Part shown: piece after piece, positions 925 through 12,737 of the stretch
Position numbering within the stretch: position 1 is the first letter of the stretch
How the letters are laid out: each line of letters opens with the position of its first letter
IMG/VR virus record: IMGVR_UViG_3300005753_000001
Location: 1 to 48,484 of that record
Direction: 5' to 3' (one strand)
From: a virus
DNA length: 48,484 bases
Program-made: the position numbers and the translations under genes
Notes under the pieces: generated by a model
Database searches by the model: none
Told to the model about the DNA's origin: nothing
Seen by the model: only the letters and a program-made list of their open reading frames with translations

Positions 925-1704
925 ATGACTATACTAGACTTAAAAGGTGACATTAAAAAAGTGCTGTCTCTACACCGCGAATGGTTATCTGACCCTTCCA
1001 CCGGCCAACGCGCGGATTTGTCGGGTGCAAATTTTAGGGATGCAAATTTTAGGGGTGCGAATTTAACGGGTGCGAATTTGATGTATGCAGATTTAGCGGG
1101 TGCAAATTTTAGGGATGCGAATTTGTCGGGTGCGAATTTGATGTATGCGAATTTAACGGGTGCGGATTGTAGGCGTGCGAATTTTAGGGATGCGAATTTG
1201 TCGGGTGCGAATTTAGCGGGTGCTGATTTTAGGGATGCAAATTTCAGGGATGCGGATTTAACGGGTGCTGATTTTAGGGATGCTGATTTAGCGGATGCGA
1301 ATTTGTCGGGCGTAAATTTTAGGGGTGCGAATTTAACGGGTGCGAATTTGATGTATGCAGATTTAGCGGGTGCAGATTGTAGGCGTGCTGATTTTAGGGG
1401 CGTAAATTTTAGGGGTGCGAATTTAACGGGTGCGAATTTGATGTATGCAGATTTAGCGGATACAGATTTGTCGGATGTGAATTTGTCAGGCTGCATTGGT
1501 AACAATAGAGAGATAAAAACTCTAATGTTGGGTACTTATATAGTCAACTACACCAAAGACATCGTACTGATAGGGTGCCAAGGCCATACGTGGGCAACGT
1601 GGTTAAGTTTTAGTGACGCCGATATAGCAAACATGGACTCTGCAGTCCCTAAGTTTTGGCGTAAGTGGAAGCCTTTATTAATTTCTATTTTTGACAACGA
1701 GTAA
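925..1704 (+). CDS. Pentapeptide-repeat protein, 259 aa
   Basis: About 32 consecutive A(D/N)(L/F)xx quintets fill roughly residues 30-190 (for example ANLSGANFRDANLTGADFRD), predicting a right-handed quadrilateral beta-helix. A C-terminal domain follows with an IGCQGHTWATW motif, ending in FWRKWKPLLISIFDNE; similar tails occur on other phage pentapeptide proteins. I chose ATG 925 because AGGTGA lies about 9 nt upstream. Some pentapeptide proteins (Qnr, MfpA) mimic DNA and shield gyrase, but nothing here fixes the target. The DNA is internally repetitive, so the repeat number may vary by recombination. Confidence 0.85.
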   Translation: MTILDLKGDIKKVLSLHREWLSDPSTGQRADLSGANFRDANFRGANLTGANLMYADLAGANFRDANLSGANLMYANLTGADCRRANFRDANLSGANLAGADFRDANFRDADLTGADFRDADLADANLSGVNFRGANLTGANLMYADLAGADCRRADFRGVNFRGANLTGANLMYADLADTDLSDVNLSGCIGNNREIKTLMLGTYIVNYTKDIVLIGCQGHTWATWLSFSDADIANMDSAVPKFWRKWKPLLISIFDNE

Positions 1705-1709
1705 ACAAC
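1654..1709 (+). repeat. Direct repeat, right copy (56 nt)
   Basis: Identical to 851-906. It ends just after the stop codon of the pentapeptide gene, so recombination between the copies would delete that gene cleanly. Confidence 0.9.
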
Positions 1710-1772
1710 CTTCAGGTTAGAGAGGCCATAAAAGGCAAAGCGTATAACCCAATTACTCATTAGGAGATTAGA

Positions 1773-3113
1773 ATGTTACCGTACTTAGACTTAGTTAAAA
1801 CCGTTAGAGATTATGGCCATGAAAAAGGAGATAGAACAGGTATAGGGACTAGAGCATTATTTGGCACTCAAATGAGGTTTGACTTAGAACATTCGTTTCC
1901 TCTCCTCACAGCCAAGAAAACTAGATTGGATTTGATTCAAACCGAGTTATTCTGGTTCCTCCAGGGTGGCACGAACACAGAATATCTACATGAGCATGGT
2001 TGTCATATATGGGATGAGTGGGCAGATAAGAATGGCGATCTAGGGCCGATCTATGGTAGTCGTTGGAGATCATGGGGAACTCCCGAATATATTATCCCAC
2101 CCAAGCCAAAACTAAGGAAAGAGGTTCCCATAACATATCTTAATGTTGCCAACGGGAAAGGAAAGACAGGACATCCCCTAGGTAAGACTTGGGAGGGGAT
2201 GATTGCCCGATGCTACAGTAAGACTAGTCCTAGTTACCTATTGTATGGTGGGAAAGGGGTTTTTGTTAGTGATGCTTGGTTAGAGTTCGCGCAGTTCGCA
2301 GAGGATGCTGAGAAAATTCCTAATTGGGAGTTGAAGAGAGATAATCCAACTAGTTTTGAGTATCAATTAGATAAAGATATTATAGGAAACGGGTTTAGGT
2401 ATAGCGTTGATACTTGTATGTGGGTTAGTGCAAAAGATAACATTCGACCAACCCATGAACATGTTGTTCTTAAAGGAACTAAGAAGTACACTTTTACAAG
2501 TGTGACAGATTTTTGTGATGAGTATGGCTGTGAAGCTAAGAATTTTTCTGACTTATGGACAGATAAGAAGAATGCCAAGGTTAGAAACGGGTTCACCTTG
2601 GTATCCAGAAAACCTTTGAATCCCACTATAGACCAAATTGCTAATGTCATTGAAGAAATAAAGACTAATCCTACCTCTAGAAGGTTGATAGTATCTGCAT
2701 GGGATCCTGAATGGGTAGAGTACACCGCGCTTCCACCATGCCACATGTTTTTTCAATTTGAAACCCACATGCGGGGAGATGGGAAGAGAATGTTATCTTG
2801 CCAGCTATACCAAAGAAGCGCAGACCTCTTTCTAGGAGTCCCATTTAACATAGCATCATACGCACTACTAACTATGATGATCGCCCAGGTAACAGGCTGT
2901 GTGGCGTCGGAATTCATCTGGACAGGTGGAGACACTCATATCTATAACAATCACATAGATCAAGTGAACACTATGTTGAATCGTGAAATACTCCCAGCCC
3001 CAACTATGAGACTTAATCCAGACATTAAGAACATTGACGATTTTAAGCACGAGGATTTTGTATTAGAAGGATATAATCATCATCCGTATATCAAAGCAGA
3101 TGTGGCGGTTTAA
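1773..3113 (+). CDS. thyA: Thymidylate synthase with an in-frame HNH-like insertion, 446 aa
   Basis: ThyA makes dTMP from dUMP using methylene-tetrahydrofolate. Residues 1-101 and about 282-446 form a complete ThyA core of about 266 residues, the usual length. Visible motifs are DRTG (R21), WDEWAD and GPIYGSRWRSW; then SRRLIVSAW, the catalytic Cys323 in PPCHMFFQF, QLYQRSADLFLG, PFNIASYALL and TGGDTHIYNNH. Between the halves lie about 180 extra residues that resemble phage HNH-type and NUMOD-type DNA-binding segments. They fall in the small-domain loop where Lactobacillus casei ThyA also carries extra residues, so the enzyme may remain active. A Shine-Dalgarno (TAGGAGA) precedes ATG 1773. Confidence 0.92.
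   Translation: MLPYLDLVKTVRDYGHEKGDRTGIGTRALFGTQMRFDLEHSFPLLTAKKTRLDLIQTELFWFLQGGTNTEYLHEHGCHIWDEWADKNGDLGPIYGSRWRSWGTPEYIIPPKPKLRKEVPITYLNVANGKGKTGHPLGKTWEGMIARCYSKTSPSYLLYGGKGVFVSDAWLEFAQFAEDAEKIPNWELKRDNPTSFEYQLDKDIIGNGFRYSVDTCMWVSAKDNIRPTHEHVVLKGTKKYTFTSVTDFCDEYGCEAKNFSDLWTDKKNAKVRNGFTLVSRKPLNPTIDQIANVIEEIKTNPTSRRLIVSAWDPEWVEYTALPPCHMFFQFETHMRGDGKRMLSCQLYQRSADLFLGVPFNIASYALLTMMIAQVTGCVASEFIWTGGDTHIYNNHIDQVNTMLNREILPAPTMRLNPDIKNIDDFKHEDFVLEGYNHHPYIKADVAV
2076..2615 (+). other. HNH/NUMOD-like insertion within thyA (about residues 102-281)
   Basis: The insertion begins after the conserved GSRWRSW and ends before PTIDQI. The first part has WEGMIARCY, YLLYGGKGVFVSDAW, F..F and YQLDKDIIGNGFRYSVDTC followed by WVSAKDNI, matching the pattern of small phage HNH-type endonucleases (WxxMxxRCY, YGGxGxxVxxxW, LDKD...NxxYSxxxC). 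The second part (YTFTSVTDFCDEYG, then GFTLV) resembles NUMOD1/IENR helix-turn-helix repeats of homing endonucleases. There is no intein block A, no TxxH and no terminal HN-C/S/T, so splicing is not expected. Edges are approximate. Catalytic competence is not proven. Confidence 0.7.
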
Positions 3114-3122
3114 GAGGATATT

Positions 3123-3719
3123 ATGTTTAAAAATGGACATATAATGGTAGATATTGAAACAGGAGATACGAAGTCCACAGCCCTAATCAGATCTATTGGT
3201 GCTTGTGAATTTGATTTATTAACCGGAAAAATAGGTAAGAAATTCTACATAAACATTGATTGGGATTCGTGCTTATATGCCGGACTCACAGTTTCACAAG
3301 ATACAATGGAGTGGTGGGAAAAACAAAGTACTCAAGCAAAGGAGATTTTTAACACCCCACCCCCTGTACCGCTTGAGATTGGCTTACTAGAGTTAAGTAC
3401 TTGGTATGACCTTCTAAGGGGTAAGCCTGATGTTTGGTATAACCCAGCTACGTTTGACGGAGAGATCTTAACAAACGCATACGCGGCTGTGGGATATAAG
3501 TTCTTCCACCACTGGTCTAAAGAAACGTGCCTTAAGTCAGTACTAAAAACCATAACCGCCTTAACAGGATTTAAAAAAACTAACATCCCGTTTATGGGGG
3601 TAAGGCATAACGCATTAGATGATGCCGTGTACCAAGCAACATATCTGGCCGCAGGATATAAGCAAGTTCATGATAAGGTTGCCCCAAAGGGAATAACCCT
3701 TAGACCTGGAGTTCTATAG
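3123..3719 (+). CDS. DnaQ/DexA-like 3'-5' exonuclease, 198 aa
   Basis: The DEDD exonuclease motifs are visible: Exo I as VDIETGD near residue 10, an Exo II-like PATFDGEIL near residue 105, and a final RHNALDDAVYQA around residue 165 that supplies the catalytic His and Asp. This arrangement is like T4 DexA and related phage exonucleases of the RNase H fold. The likely role is trimming 3' ends of DNA or RNA during replication or host degradation. A Shine-Dalgarno (AAGAGGA) precedes ATG 3123. The TAG stop overlaps the GTG of the next gene. Confidence 0.8.
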   Translation: MFKNGHIMVDIETGDTKSTALIRSIGACEFDLLTGKIGKKFYINIDWDSCLYAGLTVSQDTMEWWEKQSTQAKEIFNTPPPVPLEIGLLELSTWYDLLRGKPDVWYNPATFDGEILTNAYAAVGYKFFHHWSKETCLKSVLKTITALTGFKKTNIPFMGVRHNALDDAVYQATYLAAGYKQVHDKVAPKGITLRPGVL

Positions 3720-4508: not shown

Positions 4509-4962
4509 TTGGGTACAGTTACAAAATTATCATACACATTTGGGCTTGTTGGTTATAGTGAGACCCAATCGGAGTTTCCACCAACATTAGAGATGGTTGG
4601 TGGTAAAGGACTTCATTTAATTGAAATGAGTGGATTAAGGTTGCATGTCCCTTCGGGAGTTATTCTAACTACTCAGACCTGTAACAGTTACCTTGGGCCA
4701 TACTTTCAATTTGCCTACCTTATGAAGGATACTCTGATTTGGCAGAACGTCTGAGCACAAAGGGCTATAAGATAATTTTTCAAACCCCTCCATTACTGAG
4801 TTACACCATCAATCAGGGCTAGTAAGATTCTCTGAGGTAGATCCCAAAACACAAGAAATGATGCCTTGCATACATAGCTTAGTCCAAGGTTCAGATAAGG
4901 ATCTAAGAATACTAGACCCGATATGTACATTAGAATCGTCGTTATCAATCTTGTTGGGATAG
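4509..4962 (+). pseudogene. Decayed PPDK-like gene, readable in three successive frames
   Basis: TTG 4509 has GGAGG 7 nt upstream and opens an 81-residue frame ending at 4754. Residues VGGKGLHLIEMS and VPSGVILTTQTC resemble the N-terminus of pyruvate phosphate dikinase/PEP synthase (GGKGxxLxEM...VPPGFxxTT). Fluent coding then continues in a second frame (4685-4834, including PYEGYSDLAERL and GYKIIFQTPP) and a third (4771-4962, including GLVRFSEVDPKTQEMM and SDKDLRILDP). Each step is one frame apart, which suggests a longer gene broken by at least two indels. The 81-residue peptide may still be made. The identity of the later segments is unknown. Confidence 0.6.
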
Positions 4963-5012: not shown

Positions 5013-5426
5013 ATGGTCAGAGATCCTTGTCCCAAATGTGACGGATTATCGTGGTACGAGAAGGAGAATAAGGATATTATTCAACGATGCTTATGTGGTT
5101 ATCTTGCCTTTGTTCAAACCGAGAAGAACGGCGTATACATAAAGCATGTGCAACCGAAAACACAGGTAGTGTTGCCCAGAAAAGGATCAAAGTTATTAAA
5201 GTGTTTAGGAGCAATTGTTAGTTTATCCCCTTCTCACGTTACTACGGGCGATGTATCTGAACGAAGCGGGTTCACTACTAGTAAGACCGCCTCTTACCTT
5301 ATGTTGTTAGAGCATAAAGGATTAGTATTAAAAATACTCCATCGTAGAGGATACGTTGGGGGTAGTACCTGGGAAGTAACAAGTAGAGCGGTAACATTAT
5401 ACAATTTTAAGATCAAGGAGGTTTAA
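5013..5426 (+). CDS. Zinc-ribbon plus winged-helix-like regulator, 137 aa
   Basis: I chose ATG 5013 because the protein then starts MVRDPCPKCDG; an upstream in-frame ATG (4923) would translate the dyad repeat. Residues 5-30 hold two Cys pairs (CPKCDG and CLCG), a zinc ribbon. Residues about 70-125 read as a helix-turn-helix (SHVTTGDVSERSGFTTSKTA, then YLMLLEHKGLVLKI, then a beta wing), in the style of MarR/ArsR winged helices. It is probably a DNA-binding regulator. It sits directly after a dyad repeat, so autoregulation through that site is possible but not shown. It is adjacent to the CsrA-like gene. Confidence 0.6.
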   Translation: MVRDPCPKCDGLSWYEKENKDIIQRCLCGYLAFVQTEKNGVYIKHVQPKTQVVLPRKGSKLLKCLGAIVSLSPSHVTTGDVSERSGFTTSKTASYLMLLEHKGLVLKILHRRGYVGGSTWEVTSRAVTLYNFKIKEV

Positions 5427-5427
5427 G

Positions 5428-5730
5428 ATGGCATTAGTACTTGGATTGTCCCAAGGGGGTAGTATGTACGTTGGGGATACTAAGGTAGAAGTTACAAATG
5501 TAATTTCGAAAACCAGATTTGAAGTAACTGTTTACGGGATGTGTATGGAGAATAAGTATACTATAACTGATCAACGGGCGACTGAGATCCTACCACAGGT
5601 TCAGGTGAGTGCTGGGGATAAGTCATGCCTCACCCAAGTAAAATTAGTAATAGATGCGCCACGACACATCAAAATTTTTAGAGAAGAGATTTATTTTAAG
5701 AGAAAGCAAGATAATGCCAAGCGCAATTAA
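5428..5730 (+). CDS. CsrA-like RNA-binding protein with an internal insertion, 100 aa
   Basis: CsrA is a small dimeric protein that binds GGA motifs in mRNA leaders. Residues 1-26 (LVLGLSQGGSMYVGDTKVEV) align with the CsrA N-terminus (LxLTRRxGExxxIGDxxxV), and residues 71-90 (VKLVIDAPRHIKIFREEIYF) match the CsrA C-terminal half closely, including the APR turn and the Arg of xREEIY (R85, equivalent to R44). About 44 extra residues (27-70) lie between the third and fourth strands, so the protein is 100 rather than 60-70 residues. A strong Shine-Dalgarno (AAGGAGG) precedes ATG 5428. The TRR loop is changed to GLS. Confidence 0.75.
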   Translation: MALVLGLSQGGSMYVGDTKVEVTNVISKTRFEVTVYGMCMENKYTITDQRATEILPQVQVSAGDKSCLTQVKLVIDAPRHIKIFREEIYFKRKQDNAKRN

Positions 5731-6013
5731 GGTATCAGAGCATGTAATTGACTACGTAATGTCTTTAGAGGTGTACGATAATTCAACCGAGGCTGAATTC
5801 ACCTTAATTACCATGGTTAAAAGTGCAGCCAATTGTACCCACCAAAGAGGTAATAAAAGGTTTGAGGGGTGGATTTTCAAGTACTCTAATCGGGTCATAT
5901 CCTCTGCGTATAAACATGATTGTGAACTTTGCGGGGGTCAAGGGGAGATAATGATGAGGGATATAGAGGCCGGATCTACCCAATACCTGAGTTGCCCAAA
6001 TTTTAATATTTAG
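5714..6013 (+). CDS. Small protein with a Cys-rich knuckle, 99 aa
   Basis: The frame is open from 5654, but ATG 5714 avoids deep overlap with the csrA-like gene and leaves a 17-nt overlap. Residues about 75-95 contain CELCGGQGE and a later Cys (LSCPNF), which resembles a DnaJ-type zinc knuckle. The remainder is alpha-rich (VIDYVMSLEVYDNS). It may bind nucleic acid or partner proteins. I do not recognise a family. Confidence 0.55.
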   Translation: MPSAIKVSEHVIDYVMSLEVYDNSTEAEFTLITMVKSAANCTHQRGNKRFEGWIFKYSNRVISSAYKHDCELCGGQGEIMMRDIEAGSTQYLSCPNFNI

Positions 6014-8953: not shown

Positions 8954-10699
8954 ATGACCGTCAAGATAGTTTCCAAACAAACTACCGGCCCAGATCCCCT
9001 AGCCAATGCGTTAGGTGTAACCTTATGTAGTAAAGCGGATATTCCTACTAATCAACAAATGTTAGTAATTCCAAATTCATCTGAAATGGTCGATGAGTTT
9101 CAAGAAGAATACCTTGATACGCAGGACAAATCTAAAATCCAAGTACTAAAACCACCATACAATTTATTGCAATTAGCAGAATTACGCCACACGAATAATG
9201 CATTAGGCCAGTGTGTCGCCGCTATGGAAGTTAACGTTGATGGAACAGGTTGTGTAATAGAACTACCTGGTAAAGTAGGGACTAAAGAAGAAGATACCTT
9301 AGCAGACCAAATTAAAGAGTTCTTTGATGAGCCATTTCCAGGAGAATCATTTATAACTCAGAGAAAAGCATTACGGGTAGAAGTTGAGGTTACTGGTAAT
9401 GCCTATCTAGAGGTGTTAAGAACTATAGACAACACCATTGTTATGACTAAAGTAGCCGATTCAGTTCACATGAGATTACTTCGATTAGATGAAGCTGTAC
9501 CTGTACAAAAAACTGTTCGTCGGTTTGGGAAGGATGTGAAATATACTATACACATGCAAGAACGTAGATTTGTTCAGAAGATAGGAAAAATAAGCGTTTT
9601 CTTTAAAGAATTTGGCTCAACCCGCGCACTAAATAAACACACTGGGAAATGGATTGAACCTGGGGAGGAATTCTTACCCGAAGATCGGGCATCTGAAATT
9701 ATACATTTCACAGGTATTCGTGATCCCCGAAGCCCCTATGGCCTACCCAGATGGATCGCGCAAGTTCCCTCTATACTCGGATCTAGACAAGCTGAGGAAT
9801 TAAACCTTGATTTTTTTAACGCAGGTGGGTTACCCCCAGCGTTAATTATGATTCAAGGCGGGGCCATGGCTACCGAAACGAAGAAAGAATTACAATCCTA
9901 TTTAACCGGAAAGGGGCAGTCAAAACACAGGGCCGCAATTATAGAGACCTATTCTAACTCGGGTAGCTTAGATGGTAGGGGGAATGTGAAAGTAACCGTA
10001 GAGAGGTTTGGCGCGGAAAAACAGAAAGATTCTATGTTTGAAGCCTATGACATGAATTGCGAGAAACGAGTACGTGCATCATATAGGCTACCCCCTTTAT
10101 TTATCGGGAGATCTGAAGATCATACTATGGCCACTGCAGTAGCGTCATACCAAGTGGCTGAAGCCCAAGTATTTCAACCTGAGCGTACTGAGTTTGATGA
10201 GAGAATAAACAACACGCTTATGAGAGAGATTGGAAAGGGTTACAAATTCAGGTCTCTACCATTAAACGTTAAGGATGTTGAAGCCCGATTGAAAGGTATT
10301 GAGTTAGTCTTAGAGAAGGTCGAACCTGTAAGTGCTATTAAGGCTATCAACGAGATTACTAATTTAGATCTAGTAGCTAGAGAGGGCGTAGATGTCCCAC
10401 CTGAGCCTAAAACCACATTACTAGACCCCACTACAATTGAGGTGGTCAAGAAAAGCGATCCCCTAGAATTACTGTCTCTCGCTTCAGACTGGGCATGTGC
10501 TGCTGTGGGGGATAAGATATTTACCTCAGAATCAATGCAGTCTATGCAGGAGACTATTGGGAGTCTCCAAAAATCTGAGCGGGAGTTATTTGATACTTAT
10601 GTGAGTACAACTTTAATGGCTGGAGTCCAGCATGATCCAGACGGTGCAGCGGAATTATGTGGCTGTGCAGTAGATATAATCAATGCCAGTAAAGAATGA
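8954..10699 (+). CDS. Portal protein, 581 aa
   Basis: Twelve subunits form the ring at the capsid vertex through which DNA enters and to which the connector binds. The sequence follows PBSX/HK97-type portals: an N-terminal clip region (LAELRHTNNALGQCVAAMEV), NAYLEVLR, EIIHFTGIRDPRSPYGLPRW, a helical stem around LDFFNAGGLPPALIMIQGG, and VRASYRLPPLFIGRSEDHT. Length is normal for the family. GGAG (about 8939) lies upstream of ATG 8954, separated by a C7 run. The stop overlaps the minor head gene by 17 nt. The terminase that normally precedes it is not in the window. Confidence 0.88.
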   Translation: MTVKIVSKQTTGPDPLANALGVTLCSKADIPTNQQMLVIPNSSEMVDEFQEEYLDTQDKSKIQVLKPPYNLLQLAELRHTNNALGQCVAAMEVNVDGTGCVIELPGKVGTKEEDTLADQIKEFFDEPFPGESFITQRKALRVEVEVTGNAYLEVLRTIDNTIVMTKVADSVHMRLLRLDEAVPVQKTVRRFGKDVKYTIHMQERRFVQKIGKISVFFKEFGSTRALNKHTGKWIEPGEEFLPEDRASEIIHFTGIRDPRSPYGLPRWIAQVPSILGSRQAEELNLDFFNAGGLPPALIMIQGGAMATETKKELQSYLTGKGQSKHRAAIIETYSNSGSLDGRGNVKVTVERFGAEKQKDSMFEAYDMNCEKRVRASYRLPPLFIGRSEDHTMATAVASYQVAEAQVFQPERTEFDERINNTLMREIGKGYKFRSLPLNVKDVEARLKGIELVLEKVEPVSAIKAINEITNLDLVAREGVDVPPEPKTTLLDPTTIEVVKKSDPLELLSLASDWACAAVGDKIFTSESMQSMQETIGSLQKSERELFDTYVSTTLMAGVQHDPDGAAELCGCAVDIINASKE

Positions 10700-12737
10700 A
10701 GCCTTCATAGTTATTGAGGAGTCTCTTACCACTAGACTCCAAAATTCCTGGGCACGTCATATAACCTCTACGTTAGCCCAGATAGCTAATAAAGCATCAG
10801 TAGGTGACTTTAGTGCTGCTTATAAACTAGTGAGTACTATTGATCTAACCCCCCCTATCCAAAAAAACGAACAATTCTTAGCCGTTAGTGGAATGTCTGC
10901 GGCATTATTCGGTGCGTCAAGATTCGCACCAGTACAAAAGACTAGTTTTGCTACTCAAGATAAACCCCCTATACTAGACAATTCCGTTAATGTAATCTCT
11001 AGAGTGCTTACCGAGAATGGTTCTGAGATCGTTAGACGAACTGCCAATAAGCTTTTGAATATAGAGGAGCGAAGACAATCTGAAGACATAGTGGTTAAGA
11101 GCGAAAAGCTCATTTTTACGCGAGATTTTATTTTTACGACTAAGAAATCCGGAGATGATATGTTATCCCTGGCCTCTAATTTACACACATCTAGACTGGC
11201 CGCCTGGGGGTTTACTGTAGAGGCGACCGTCCGTGGGCAGAAGTACTATCAAGTATCTGAAGTCTTAGATTCAATTATTTGTCCTGTCTGTAGGACTATG
11301 CACGGGAAGGTCTTTGCAGTACCTCAAGCAAGAAATAAATTAGAGAGATGGTTGGATGTTGAAGATCCAGATGATCTTAAATCTCTAGCCCCTTGGCCTA
11401 AACAGAATAAGAAATCTGTTGAGAATTTGCAGGCCATGAGTGACGGAGACATCTTGGCTTCAGGGTGGGACACTCCCCCATACCACCCAAAGTGCTATTC
11501 AGACACTATGAGGGTATATACTAGGAAGGGGTTTCAGCTATTTAGAGATGTGAGTGTGGGCGACGAGTTTCTAAGTCTTAATCCAGACAGCCTCCAGTTA
11601 GAATGGATTGTAGCAGTTGCAAAACAAGAATATGCCTATGAAGGACTTATGGTAAGGTATAGTAATAAACAAGGGTCAGTAGGGTTATTAGTCACTCCAG
11701 ATCATTCCCAATTTGTTCGACGACGGGTTGATAAAGGCACTCATCGTGAAATGGTGTCAAAATTTGTTCCTGCCTGCGAGGCCTTTACCAGCCCTGAGAA
11801 TAAGCTATTCCTTTCAAGTGAGCATGTAGGTGTTGCCCACGAAACAATTCAAGGATACCGAGCAGAACCCTTTGCTAGGTTTATGGGATGGTACTTATCA
11901 GAAGGCCACACGACGCACCGTACTAAGAATCATTACGAAAGTTGCATAACTCAATTTAAACACCCTTTAGATGTATCGGCCACCTTAGAGGATTGCGGGA
12001 TCCCGTATACCAAGCATAAGGGGGGTAAGTTCTACCTACGCGACCAAGAGTTGAATAAATGGTTATATAAATTTGGAAAGTCTTTTGAAAAGTATATTCC
12101 CGCAATCATCATGGAGAGTAGTGTGGGGTTATTACGAGCGTTTCTTCAGACGTATTTATTGGGCGACGGGAGTACAACTACTAATAGGTGTTTTGGGTAT
12201 AAGTCTACATCTAAAGTAATATTCACTACTTCGATACGAATGAGGGATCAATTAGTCGAGGTGAGTATACGATGTGGAGGGAGTGGTTCTTTTAGGGTAA
12301 GTTCTTTAAAAGGGATGTCAACGAAACATAATAACGGGACATATACTAGTAATCATGACTGTTGGGCCGTGAGCCTAAATACTACGATACACCGTAACCC
12401 TGAGGTTTCTCATGAGGACTATAGGGGGTTGGTGTATGATGTGACCTTAGAGAGGAACCACACTTTGCTTGTGGAATTAGATGGAAGTATAGCCTGGTCA
12501 GGGAATTGCAGAGGCATTTTAGTTCCTACGACTAAAGTACCCGCACCCACAAGTGGAGTTGTTGCACAGGATGAACCACAATTGATAGGGTTATCGAGTA
12601 AAGACGTCGCCACTTTATTGATTGGAGGGGCAGCAGCTTTAGTCACCTCAAACTCACCAGACCCAGAAGAAGAGGGTTTAGGGGCTTTAGGGGTTGTACT
12701 CGGGGTAGCCCTAGATCAACAATTAAATGAGGAGTAG
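10683..12737 (+). CDS. Mu gpF/SPP1 gp7-like minor head protein interrupted by an intein, 684 aa precursor
   Basis: The protein joins the portal during head assembly. Extein hallmarks are SIICPVCRTMHGKVFAVP near residue 205 and PPYHPK|CRGILVP, split exactly at the conserved PPxHPxCR motif. Residues 271-608 are a LAGLIDADG intein. Removal leaves 346 residues, a plausible family length, with a small-residue-rich tail (LIGGAAALVTS). The ATG lies inside the portal reading frame, so the two are translationally coupled. Assembly of functional heads presumably requires splicing. Confidence 0.9.
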   Translation: MPVKNEAFIVIEESLTTRLQNSWARHITSTLAQIANKASVGDFSAAYKLVSTIDLTPPIQKNEQFLAVSGMSAALFGASRFAPVQKTSFATQDKPPILDNSVNVISRVLTENGSEIVRRTANKLLNIEERRQSEDIVVKSEKLIFTRDFIFTTKKSGDDMLSLASNLHTSRLAAWGFTVEATVRGQKYYQVSEVLDSIICPVCRTMHGKVFAVPQARNKLERWLDVEDPDDLKSLAPWPKQNKKSVENLQAMSDGDILASGWDTPPYHPKCYSDTMRVYTRKGFQLFRDVSVGDEFLSLNPDSLQLEWIVAVAKQEYAYEGLMVRYSNKQGSVGLLVTPDHSQFVRRRVDKGTHREMVSKFVPACEAFTSPENKLFLSSEHVGVAHETIQGYRAEPFARFMGWYLSEGHTTHRTKNHYESCITQFKHPLDVSATLEDCGIPYTKHKGGKFYLRDQELNKWLYKFGKSFEKYIPAIIMESSVGLLRAFLQTYLLGDGSTTTNRCFGYKSTSKVIFTTSIRMRDQLVEVSIRCGGSGSFRVSSLKGMSTKHNNGTYTSNHDCWAVSLNTTIHRNPEVSHEDYRGLVYDVTLERNHTLLVELDGSIAWSGNCRGILVPTTKVPAPTSGVVAQDEPQLIGLSSKDVATLLIGGAAALVTSNSPDPEEEGLGALGVVLGVALDQQLNEE
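11493..12506 (+). other. LAGLIDADG intein, 338 aa
   Basis: It starts at Cys271 (block A CYSDTMRVYTRKG). Block B is GLLVTPDHSQFV with TPDH at intein residues 68-71. Endonuclease motifs are FMGWYLSEG (about 130-138) and LLRAFLQTYLLGDGS (213-227), both with the acidic residue retained. Block F is GLVYDVTLERNHTLLV and block G ends AWSGN followed by extein Cys609. The penultimate residue is Gly, not the usual His, which is seen in some active inteins but can slow Asn cyclisation. The endonuclease looks intact, so homing into intein-free relatives is plausible. Confidence 0.92.

Follow-up and report, generated by a model that had tools for sequence, protein, structure and literature searches.

The CsrA/RsmA proteins (PF02599; CsrA of E. 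coli and RsmA of Pseudomonas aeruginosa) form a swapped dimer in which each five-stranded sheet combines strands 2–4 from one chain with strands 1 and 5 from its partner (PMC7652899; PMC3791407). Residues L4 and R44 are critical, R44 being essential for RNA binding (PMC7652899; PMC3791407), and two RNA faces are required for full repression of glgC and for the bridging of sites (PMC7652899). One relative, RsmN/RsmF from P. aeruginosa (PDB entries 4kji, 4krw and 4k59), carries an insertion that undoes the strand swap while the RNA-binding sheet is kept. Its insert is helical, comprises 16 residues and lies between strands 2 and 3; RsmN, which remains dimeric, has no C-terminal helix (PMC3791407).

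Phage csrA genes are also known, having been found in 30 of 2517 phages (PMC7366521) and in a further survey (PMC8450108). Like the protein described here, these canonical copies are phage-encoded CsrA relatives, and they have been proposed to act in host manipulation (PMC7366521; PMC8450108). Those of the latter survey, which demanded 50% profile coverage, are 'highly similar' to bacterial CsrA, unlike our protein (PMC8450108). The canonical phage copies compared here are mostly of about 60–70 amino acids. A published gene at the same genomic position is ORF99, annotated 'CsrA', of Vibrio phage vB_VneS_J26 (PP534163), which stands in the order PPDK, CsrA, PTP and, further on, DNA polymerase A and portal (PMC12038007). 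It differs in being 160 amino acids long, with a C-terminal extension and no Pfam CsrA match. The gene was published in 2025 as an ordinary CsrA, and the passages found of that paper make no mention of its architecture (PMC12038007). No description of the insert reported below, or of a single-chain form, was found in the open-access literature.

Here, we analyse a CsrA-like gene in the IMG/VR virus record IMGVR_UViG_3300005753_000001, a DNA of 48,484 bases with 41% GC that is called the window below. The gene and its immediate surroundings are as follows.

5013 to 5426, forward strand: upstream partner gene, zinc ribbon plus probable winged helix; homolog of DLP05_138 (34% identity), ending one base before the ATG of the CsrA-like gene
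5415 to 5421, forward strand: strong Shine–Dalgarno sequence AAGGAGG of the CsrA-like gene
5428 to 5730, forward strand: CsrA-like gene, 100 amino acids from an ATG start; CsrA strands 1–3, an all-beta insert of about 40 residues, CsrA strands 4–5 and the C-terminal helix
5680 to 5682, forward strand: codon of R85, equivalent to CsrA R44; Arg in 18 of 21 aligned members
5714 to 6013, forward strand: downstream partner gene with an HxxGN[RK]RF motif and a CxxC, overlapping the CsrA-like gene; homolog of DLP05_140 and of RcZahn gp8

The translated product of the CsrA-like ORF is MALVLGLSQGGSMYVGDTKVEVTNVISKTRFEVTVYGMCMENKYTITDQRATEILPQVQVSAGDKSCLTQVKLVIDAPRHIKIFREEIYFKRKQDNAKRN. Given the Shine–Dalgarno sequence, the placement of the ATG one base beyond the end of the upstream gene (5426) and the next ATG (5714) inside the 3' end of the gene, the ORF looks like a translated member of an operon.

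At the level of sequence, this product is confirmed as a CsrA relative that carries an insertion. It matches the Pfam CsrA family PF02599 with 33.2 bits (E 5e-8; gathering cut-off 27) over residues 70–91 only, which correspond to profile positions 29–50 of 53; the NCBIfam equivalog cut-offs are missed (NF002469, 34.4 versus 73 bits; TIGR00202, 30.8 versus 70.1). With 22 of 53 profile positions covered, the protein would fail the coverage filter of the published survey (PMC8450108). Single-sequence searches show the N-terminal match only weakly, but it is real when the family is compared as a profile with about 60 canonical CsrA sequences against a null of 200 column shuffles: residues 1–47 alone align to CsrA 2–26 with a score that none of the 200 shuffles reached, and residues 48–95 did equally well (0/200). 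Thus, both CsrA ends are genuine, including the APR...REEIY motif, as the original prediction had held, and its observation that GLS replaces TRR was also correct, CsrA T5-R6-R7 corresponding to G6-L7-S8. By sequence the protein shares with CsrA/RsmA strands 1–3, strands 4–5, the C-terminal helix and the equivalents of L4 and R44. The differences are about 40 extra residues forming four more predicted strands, which split strands 3 and 4 and so break the contiguous layout of five strands and a helix within about 60 residues, the loss of R6 and a predicted single chain with one RNA face rather than two.

The insert was expected to be 44 residues long, rich in beta strands and situated between CsrA strands 3 and 4. 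Its position and, in the model, its all-beta nature hold, and its length is close to that expected, at about 40.

5506 to 5628, forward strand: inserted segment, about residues 27–67, with predicted strands 30–36, 41–47, 52–55 and 58–62 and the family motif TEIxPDVFVSxG

It therefore differs from RsmN, whose helix lies between strands 2 and 3, both in structure and in location, and the window protein retains the C-terminal helix (residues 86–99) that RsmN lacks. The motif TEIxPDVFVSxG is the strongest of the whole family, and E53, V58 and G63 are among the insert positions kept in the full-length homologs. A chance origin is excluded, as these homologs, at 27–41% identity, keep the insert motifs; a disruption by frameshift or read-through is likewise ruled out by the many homologs with the same insert.

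The full-length homologs with this insert occur in Rhodobacter phage RcZahn, Rhizobium phages RHph_TM16 and RHph_Y1_11, Stenotrophomonas phages DLP_5, DLP_3 and Summit, and about ten IMG/VR contigs. The homolog of Vibrio phage LV6 is weak (E 0.1) yet lies in the same genomic slot. By sequence, the insert-bearing protein is thus a family in phages and not an isolated oddity. By portal and DNA polymerase, the closest relatives of the window phage are RcZahn, Delepquintavirus, the Rhizobium pair and the Vibrio 80-kb siphophages. Members on the cellular side come from an Acetobacteraceae MAG contig (L010), which carries a phage terminase and the same gene cassette beside the CsrA-like gene, from Acidocella (L011) and from three other alphaproteobacterial genomes. 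The copies at L011, L019 and L020 have no PPDK-like gene nearby and carry T at the Arg position equivalent to R44, and a PTP-like ORF stands immediately upstream of the L020 copy. A distant CsrA-like ORF beginning MALVLGVKVGEVIDIADHW is found in the alphaproteobacterial genome G656 (L021, about 1489–3250), with an ORF that resembles a reverse transcriptase by eye near it on the same strand. Alignment queries were needed to find the family, since a single-sequence search of viral contigs and a search with one family member gave no matches. A match in fecal phage MT836815 (E 9), where the ORFs are unlike the CsrA-like protein, was taken as chance, and weak, partial matches to phrog_782 and a Yersinia 'integrase' were set aside.

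In the predicted structure, the four additional strands leave the fold unbroken. Modelled with AlphaFold2 as a lone chain from 12 family sequences, the protein gave a compact nine-stranded chain with one helix (pLDDT 92.6, pTM 0.82).

Strands of the model, by residue: 2–8, 12–15, 18–27, 30–36, 41–47, 52–55, 58–62, 70–76 and 83–85; helix: 86–99

Both the first strand (2–8) and the last (83–85) are assigned in this monomer. In a control, a canonical phage CsrA of 61 amino acids also modelled from 12 sequences, strands 1 and 5 were unassigned, as expected where those strands pair only with the other subunit; its confidence was lower (pLDDT 73.4, pTM 0.53), which the lesser diversity of the control sequences may itself explain in part. 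Strand pairing in the window model is read from the secondary structure, and swapped dimers can be closed artificially by AlphaFold. A fold search of predicted viral structures gave full-length matches to 11 phage proteins (E < 1e-3, TM 0.63–0.85), one of which is named carbon storage regulator. With Foldseek against the PDB, CsrA-family chains were matched weakly, the closest of CsrA type being RsmF (E 0.17, TM to target 0.60), while the canonical control matched 15 CsrA-family chains at E < 1e-3.

A CsrA dimer contains ten strands and two helices, so nine strands and one helix fit a complete copy fused to a copy without strand 1. The inserted segment would then represent strands 4 and 5 of the first copy followed by strands 2 and 3 of the second, and one polypeptide would hold nine of the ten strands of the dimer, the second strand 1 being the one missing, together with one C-terminal helix. 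A tandem CsrA template of this form (1–44 plus 9–54) could be aligned to the family along its whole length, over 89 columns with a score of 48.8. Of 300 templates whose middle columns had been shuffled, only 4 reached that score; with the middle halves swapped, it falls to 39.2, at the null. The template was picked after the model had been seen and its ends are anchored, and the support that it lends to this reading is modest. A direct comparison of profiles of the N-terminal and C-terminal halves gave no signal. Our preferred reading, for which we judge the chances evenly balanced, is a single-chain CsrA-like regulator with one RNA face.

The most serious alternative is a CsrA homodimer that still swaps strands 1 and 5. 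The 40-residue insert would then be a beta subdomain peculiar to this lineage, placed at the edge, where it would adjust RNA specificity or contact a partner, much as the helix in RsmN reshapes the dimer there. The middle of the protein has no detectable CsrA similarity of its own, as would hold for an unrelated insert: residues 28–66 show none to CsrA in a plain profile comparison (147 of 200 shuffles score as well), and the middle segment alone is not significant against permuted CsrA (14 of 100 shuffles as good). Furthermore, RsmF/RsmN, which is the best structural match of CsrA type, is dimeric with an insertion, and although the fold of RsmN is rearranged, it binds RNA (PMC3791407). Against this stand the confident lone-chain model, in which the end strands are apparently paired within the chain, unlike in the canonical control, and the tandem template that beats its shuffled-middle versions. 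We regard such a homodimer as doubtful. The original prediction had expected the insertion to alter dimerization; this stands in that the protein is a CsrA relative whose insertion must change it, but a disruption of the interleaved dimer is not favoured, since the model suggests that the partner strands are supplied in cis.

If the protein is a single chain, its sole RNA face would be formed by the first strand 1 lying beside the last strand 5, with L5 (equivalent to CsrA L4) and R85 in place. The residue at L5 is hydrophobic in all 21 aligned members, and the R44 equivalent is replaced only in the three cellular copies with T; the Vibrio J26 protein, outside this alignment, also lacks this Arg. 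R6, invariant in the canonical CsrA set, is a non-basic residue in 21 of 21 family members, and TRR is GLS in the window protein, so that RNA may be bound weakly or no longer at all. No Arg is conserved in the strand 5 counterpart of the first half and there is no strand 1', which leaves at most one RNA face. Because bridging by CsrA needs two faces, the window protein would be expected, provided that it binds RNA, to act at single sites: each chain could bind one RNA site, and bridging of two would be impossible.

GGA-bearing leaders had been proposed as targets, a proposal that the window does not bear out: ANGGA occurs near the starts of 17 of its 50 genes, which is background level (32% of random windows), and outside the Shine–Dalgarno sequences at 18% of the window gene starts against a background of 19%. 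The sole ANGGA site within -60 to +20 of the CsrA-like gene is its own AAGGAGG, and Rfam found no CsrB/RsmZ-like RNA in the window.

The gene neighbourhood is conserved. At 16 of 18 distinct phage loci a PPDK-like gene precedes the CsrA-like gene and a PTP-like (tyrosine phosphatase) gene comes after it; at some, the zinc/winged-helix gene lies between the PPDK-like and CsrA-like genes. The usual order downstream is the HxxGNRRF gene, the tyrosine-phosphatase-like gene and then DNA polymerase A and portal, although the HxxGNRRF gene was not detected at the locus in the two Vibrio phages. In the window, the trio of winged-helix, CsrA-like and HxxGNRRF genes is kept, no phosphatase gene was found and only an N-terminal stub of the PPDK-like gene remains.

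4509 to 4754, forward strand: PPDK-like remnant, the first 60–75 residues or so only; relatives are nearly all intact at 640–735 amino acids

Another contig (L027, 6001–6282) retains the same trio and lacks both enzyme genes. The three small genes thus survive without the enzymes, and the PPDK-like enzyme was not accepted as an obligate partner. Co-expression of the CsrA-like protein with the zinc/winged-helix and small HxxGNRRF proteins is probable and, in most relatives, would extend to the PPDK-like phosphotransferase and the tyrosine-phosphatase-like protein.

The phage 'PPDK' proteins have Pfam matches only to PPDK_N and the phosphohistidine domain; the PEP/pyruvate-binding C-terminal domain had no Pfam match in those examined, and the TIGR01828 match of the L006 protein ends at 468 of 865.

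Phage 'PPDK' proteins examined: L002, 3780–5984; L003, 2856–4967; L006, 3830–5968; L010, 3772–5967; L033, 3600–5537; L036, 3612–5543; L043, 14495–16570

Judged by these domains, their substrate may be other than pyruvate, although they have been published as PPDK.

The close linkage to PPDK-like and PTP-like genes would also suit a CsrA-derived adaptor that no longer binds RNA and serves, structurally or in regulation, the phosphotransferase, phosphatase or DNA-binding protein encoded next to it. The family-wide loss of R6, the loss of the R44 equivalent in the cellular copies and Vibrio J26, and the lack of ANGGA enrichment in the window agree with this. We nevertheless think it unlikely, as the CsrA-like gene and its two small neighbours persist in the window and L027, where both enzyme genes are absent, nearly all phage members keep the Arg at the R44 position, and the GGA contacts of RsmE and RsmN are made mostly through the backbone (PMC3791407).

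Gammaproteobacteria, which include Stenotrophomonas and Vibrio, the hosts of some relatives, typically possess CsrA, a point in favour of action on the host protein. A canonical CsrA over the cut-off was found in 2 of 150 Acetobacteraceae genomes and 55 of 289 from Alphaproteobacteria, and none in G001 and G002, host-side genomes that both carry family members; no chromosomal csrA is reported for S. meliloti (PMC7366521). In hosts without CsrA the protein cannot work by competing with it, and for relatives with hosts that for the most part have none, this mode of action looks unlikely; this part of the original prediction is weakened. A decoy that forms mixed dimers with host CsrA or competes for its RNA targets is therefore highly improbable, despite the precedent of plasmid RsmQ, which can act on host networks (PMC9928087), and a like proposal for phages (PMC8450108), since a closed single chain would not enter into CsrA dimers and the RNA face lacks R6.

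Other features of the window and its relatives were observed in passing. The thymidylate synthase ORF at 1773–3113 (446 amino acids) has its two domain stretches split by about 170 in-frame residues that resemble a homing endonuclease by eye. The head-morphogenesis-type ORF at 10683–12737 has an intein/Hint-like middle by eye, with no Pfam match, and at L010 (200–3064) the terminase large subunit is split by an apparent intein with an HNH-like segment, also by eye. The small ORF at 644–901 and the adjacent pentapeptide-repeat protein at 913–1704 are identical in their last 16 or so residues (FWRKWKPLLISIFDNE), which by sequence is a local duplication.

Returning to the single chain, we infer a duplication origin, a single RNA face, an RNA target and a regulatory role, the most likely role being post-transcriptional control of messages from phage or host during takeover. 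We tentatively propose, as a possible account, that an internal, incomplete duplication produced a monomeric one-site CsrA, and that this is the normal CsrA of a lineage of 80–100 kb proteobacterial phages, mainly regulating messages of phage or host in cells often devoid of their own CsrA. CsrA is a textbook RNA-binding protein whose function depends on its interleaved, two-face dimer. If the proposal is true, a natural one-face single chain would show how such a dimer becomes internalized and would be a clean tool for separating one-site binding from two-site bridging. It would also point to an overlooked phage family, which the profile-coverage filter of a published survey would discard (PMC8450108), and would give a testable function to the conserved block of PPDK-like, CsrA-like and phosphatase genes, so far described only as metabolic genes.
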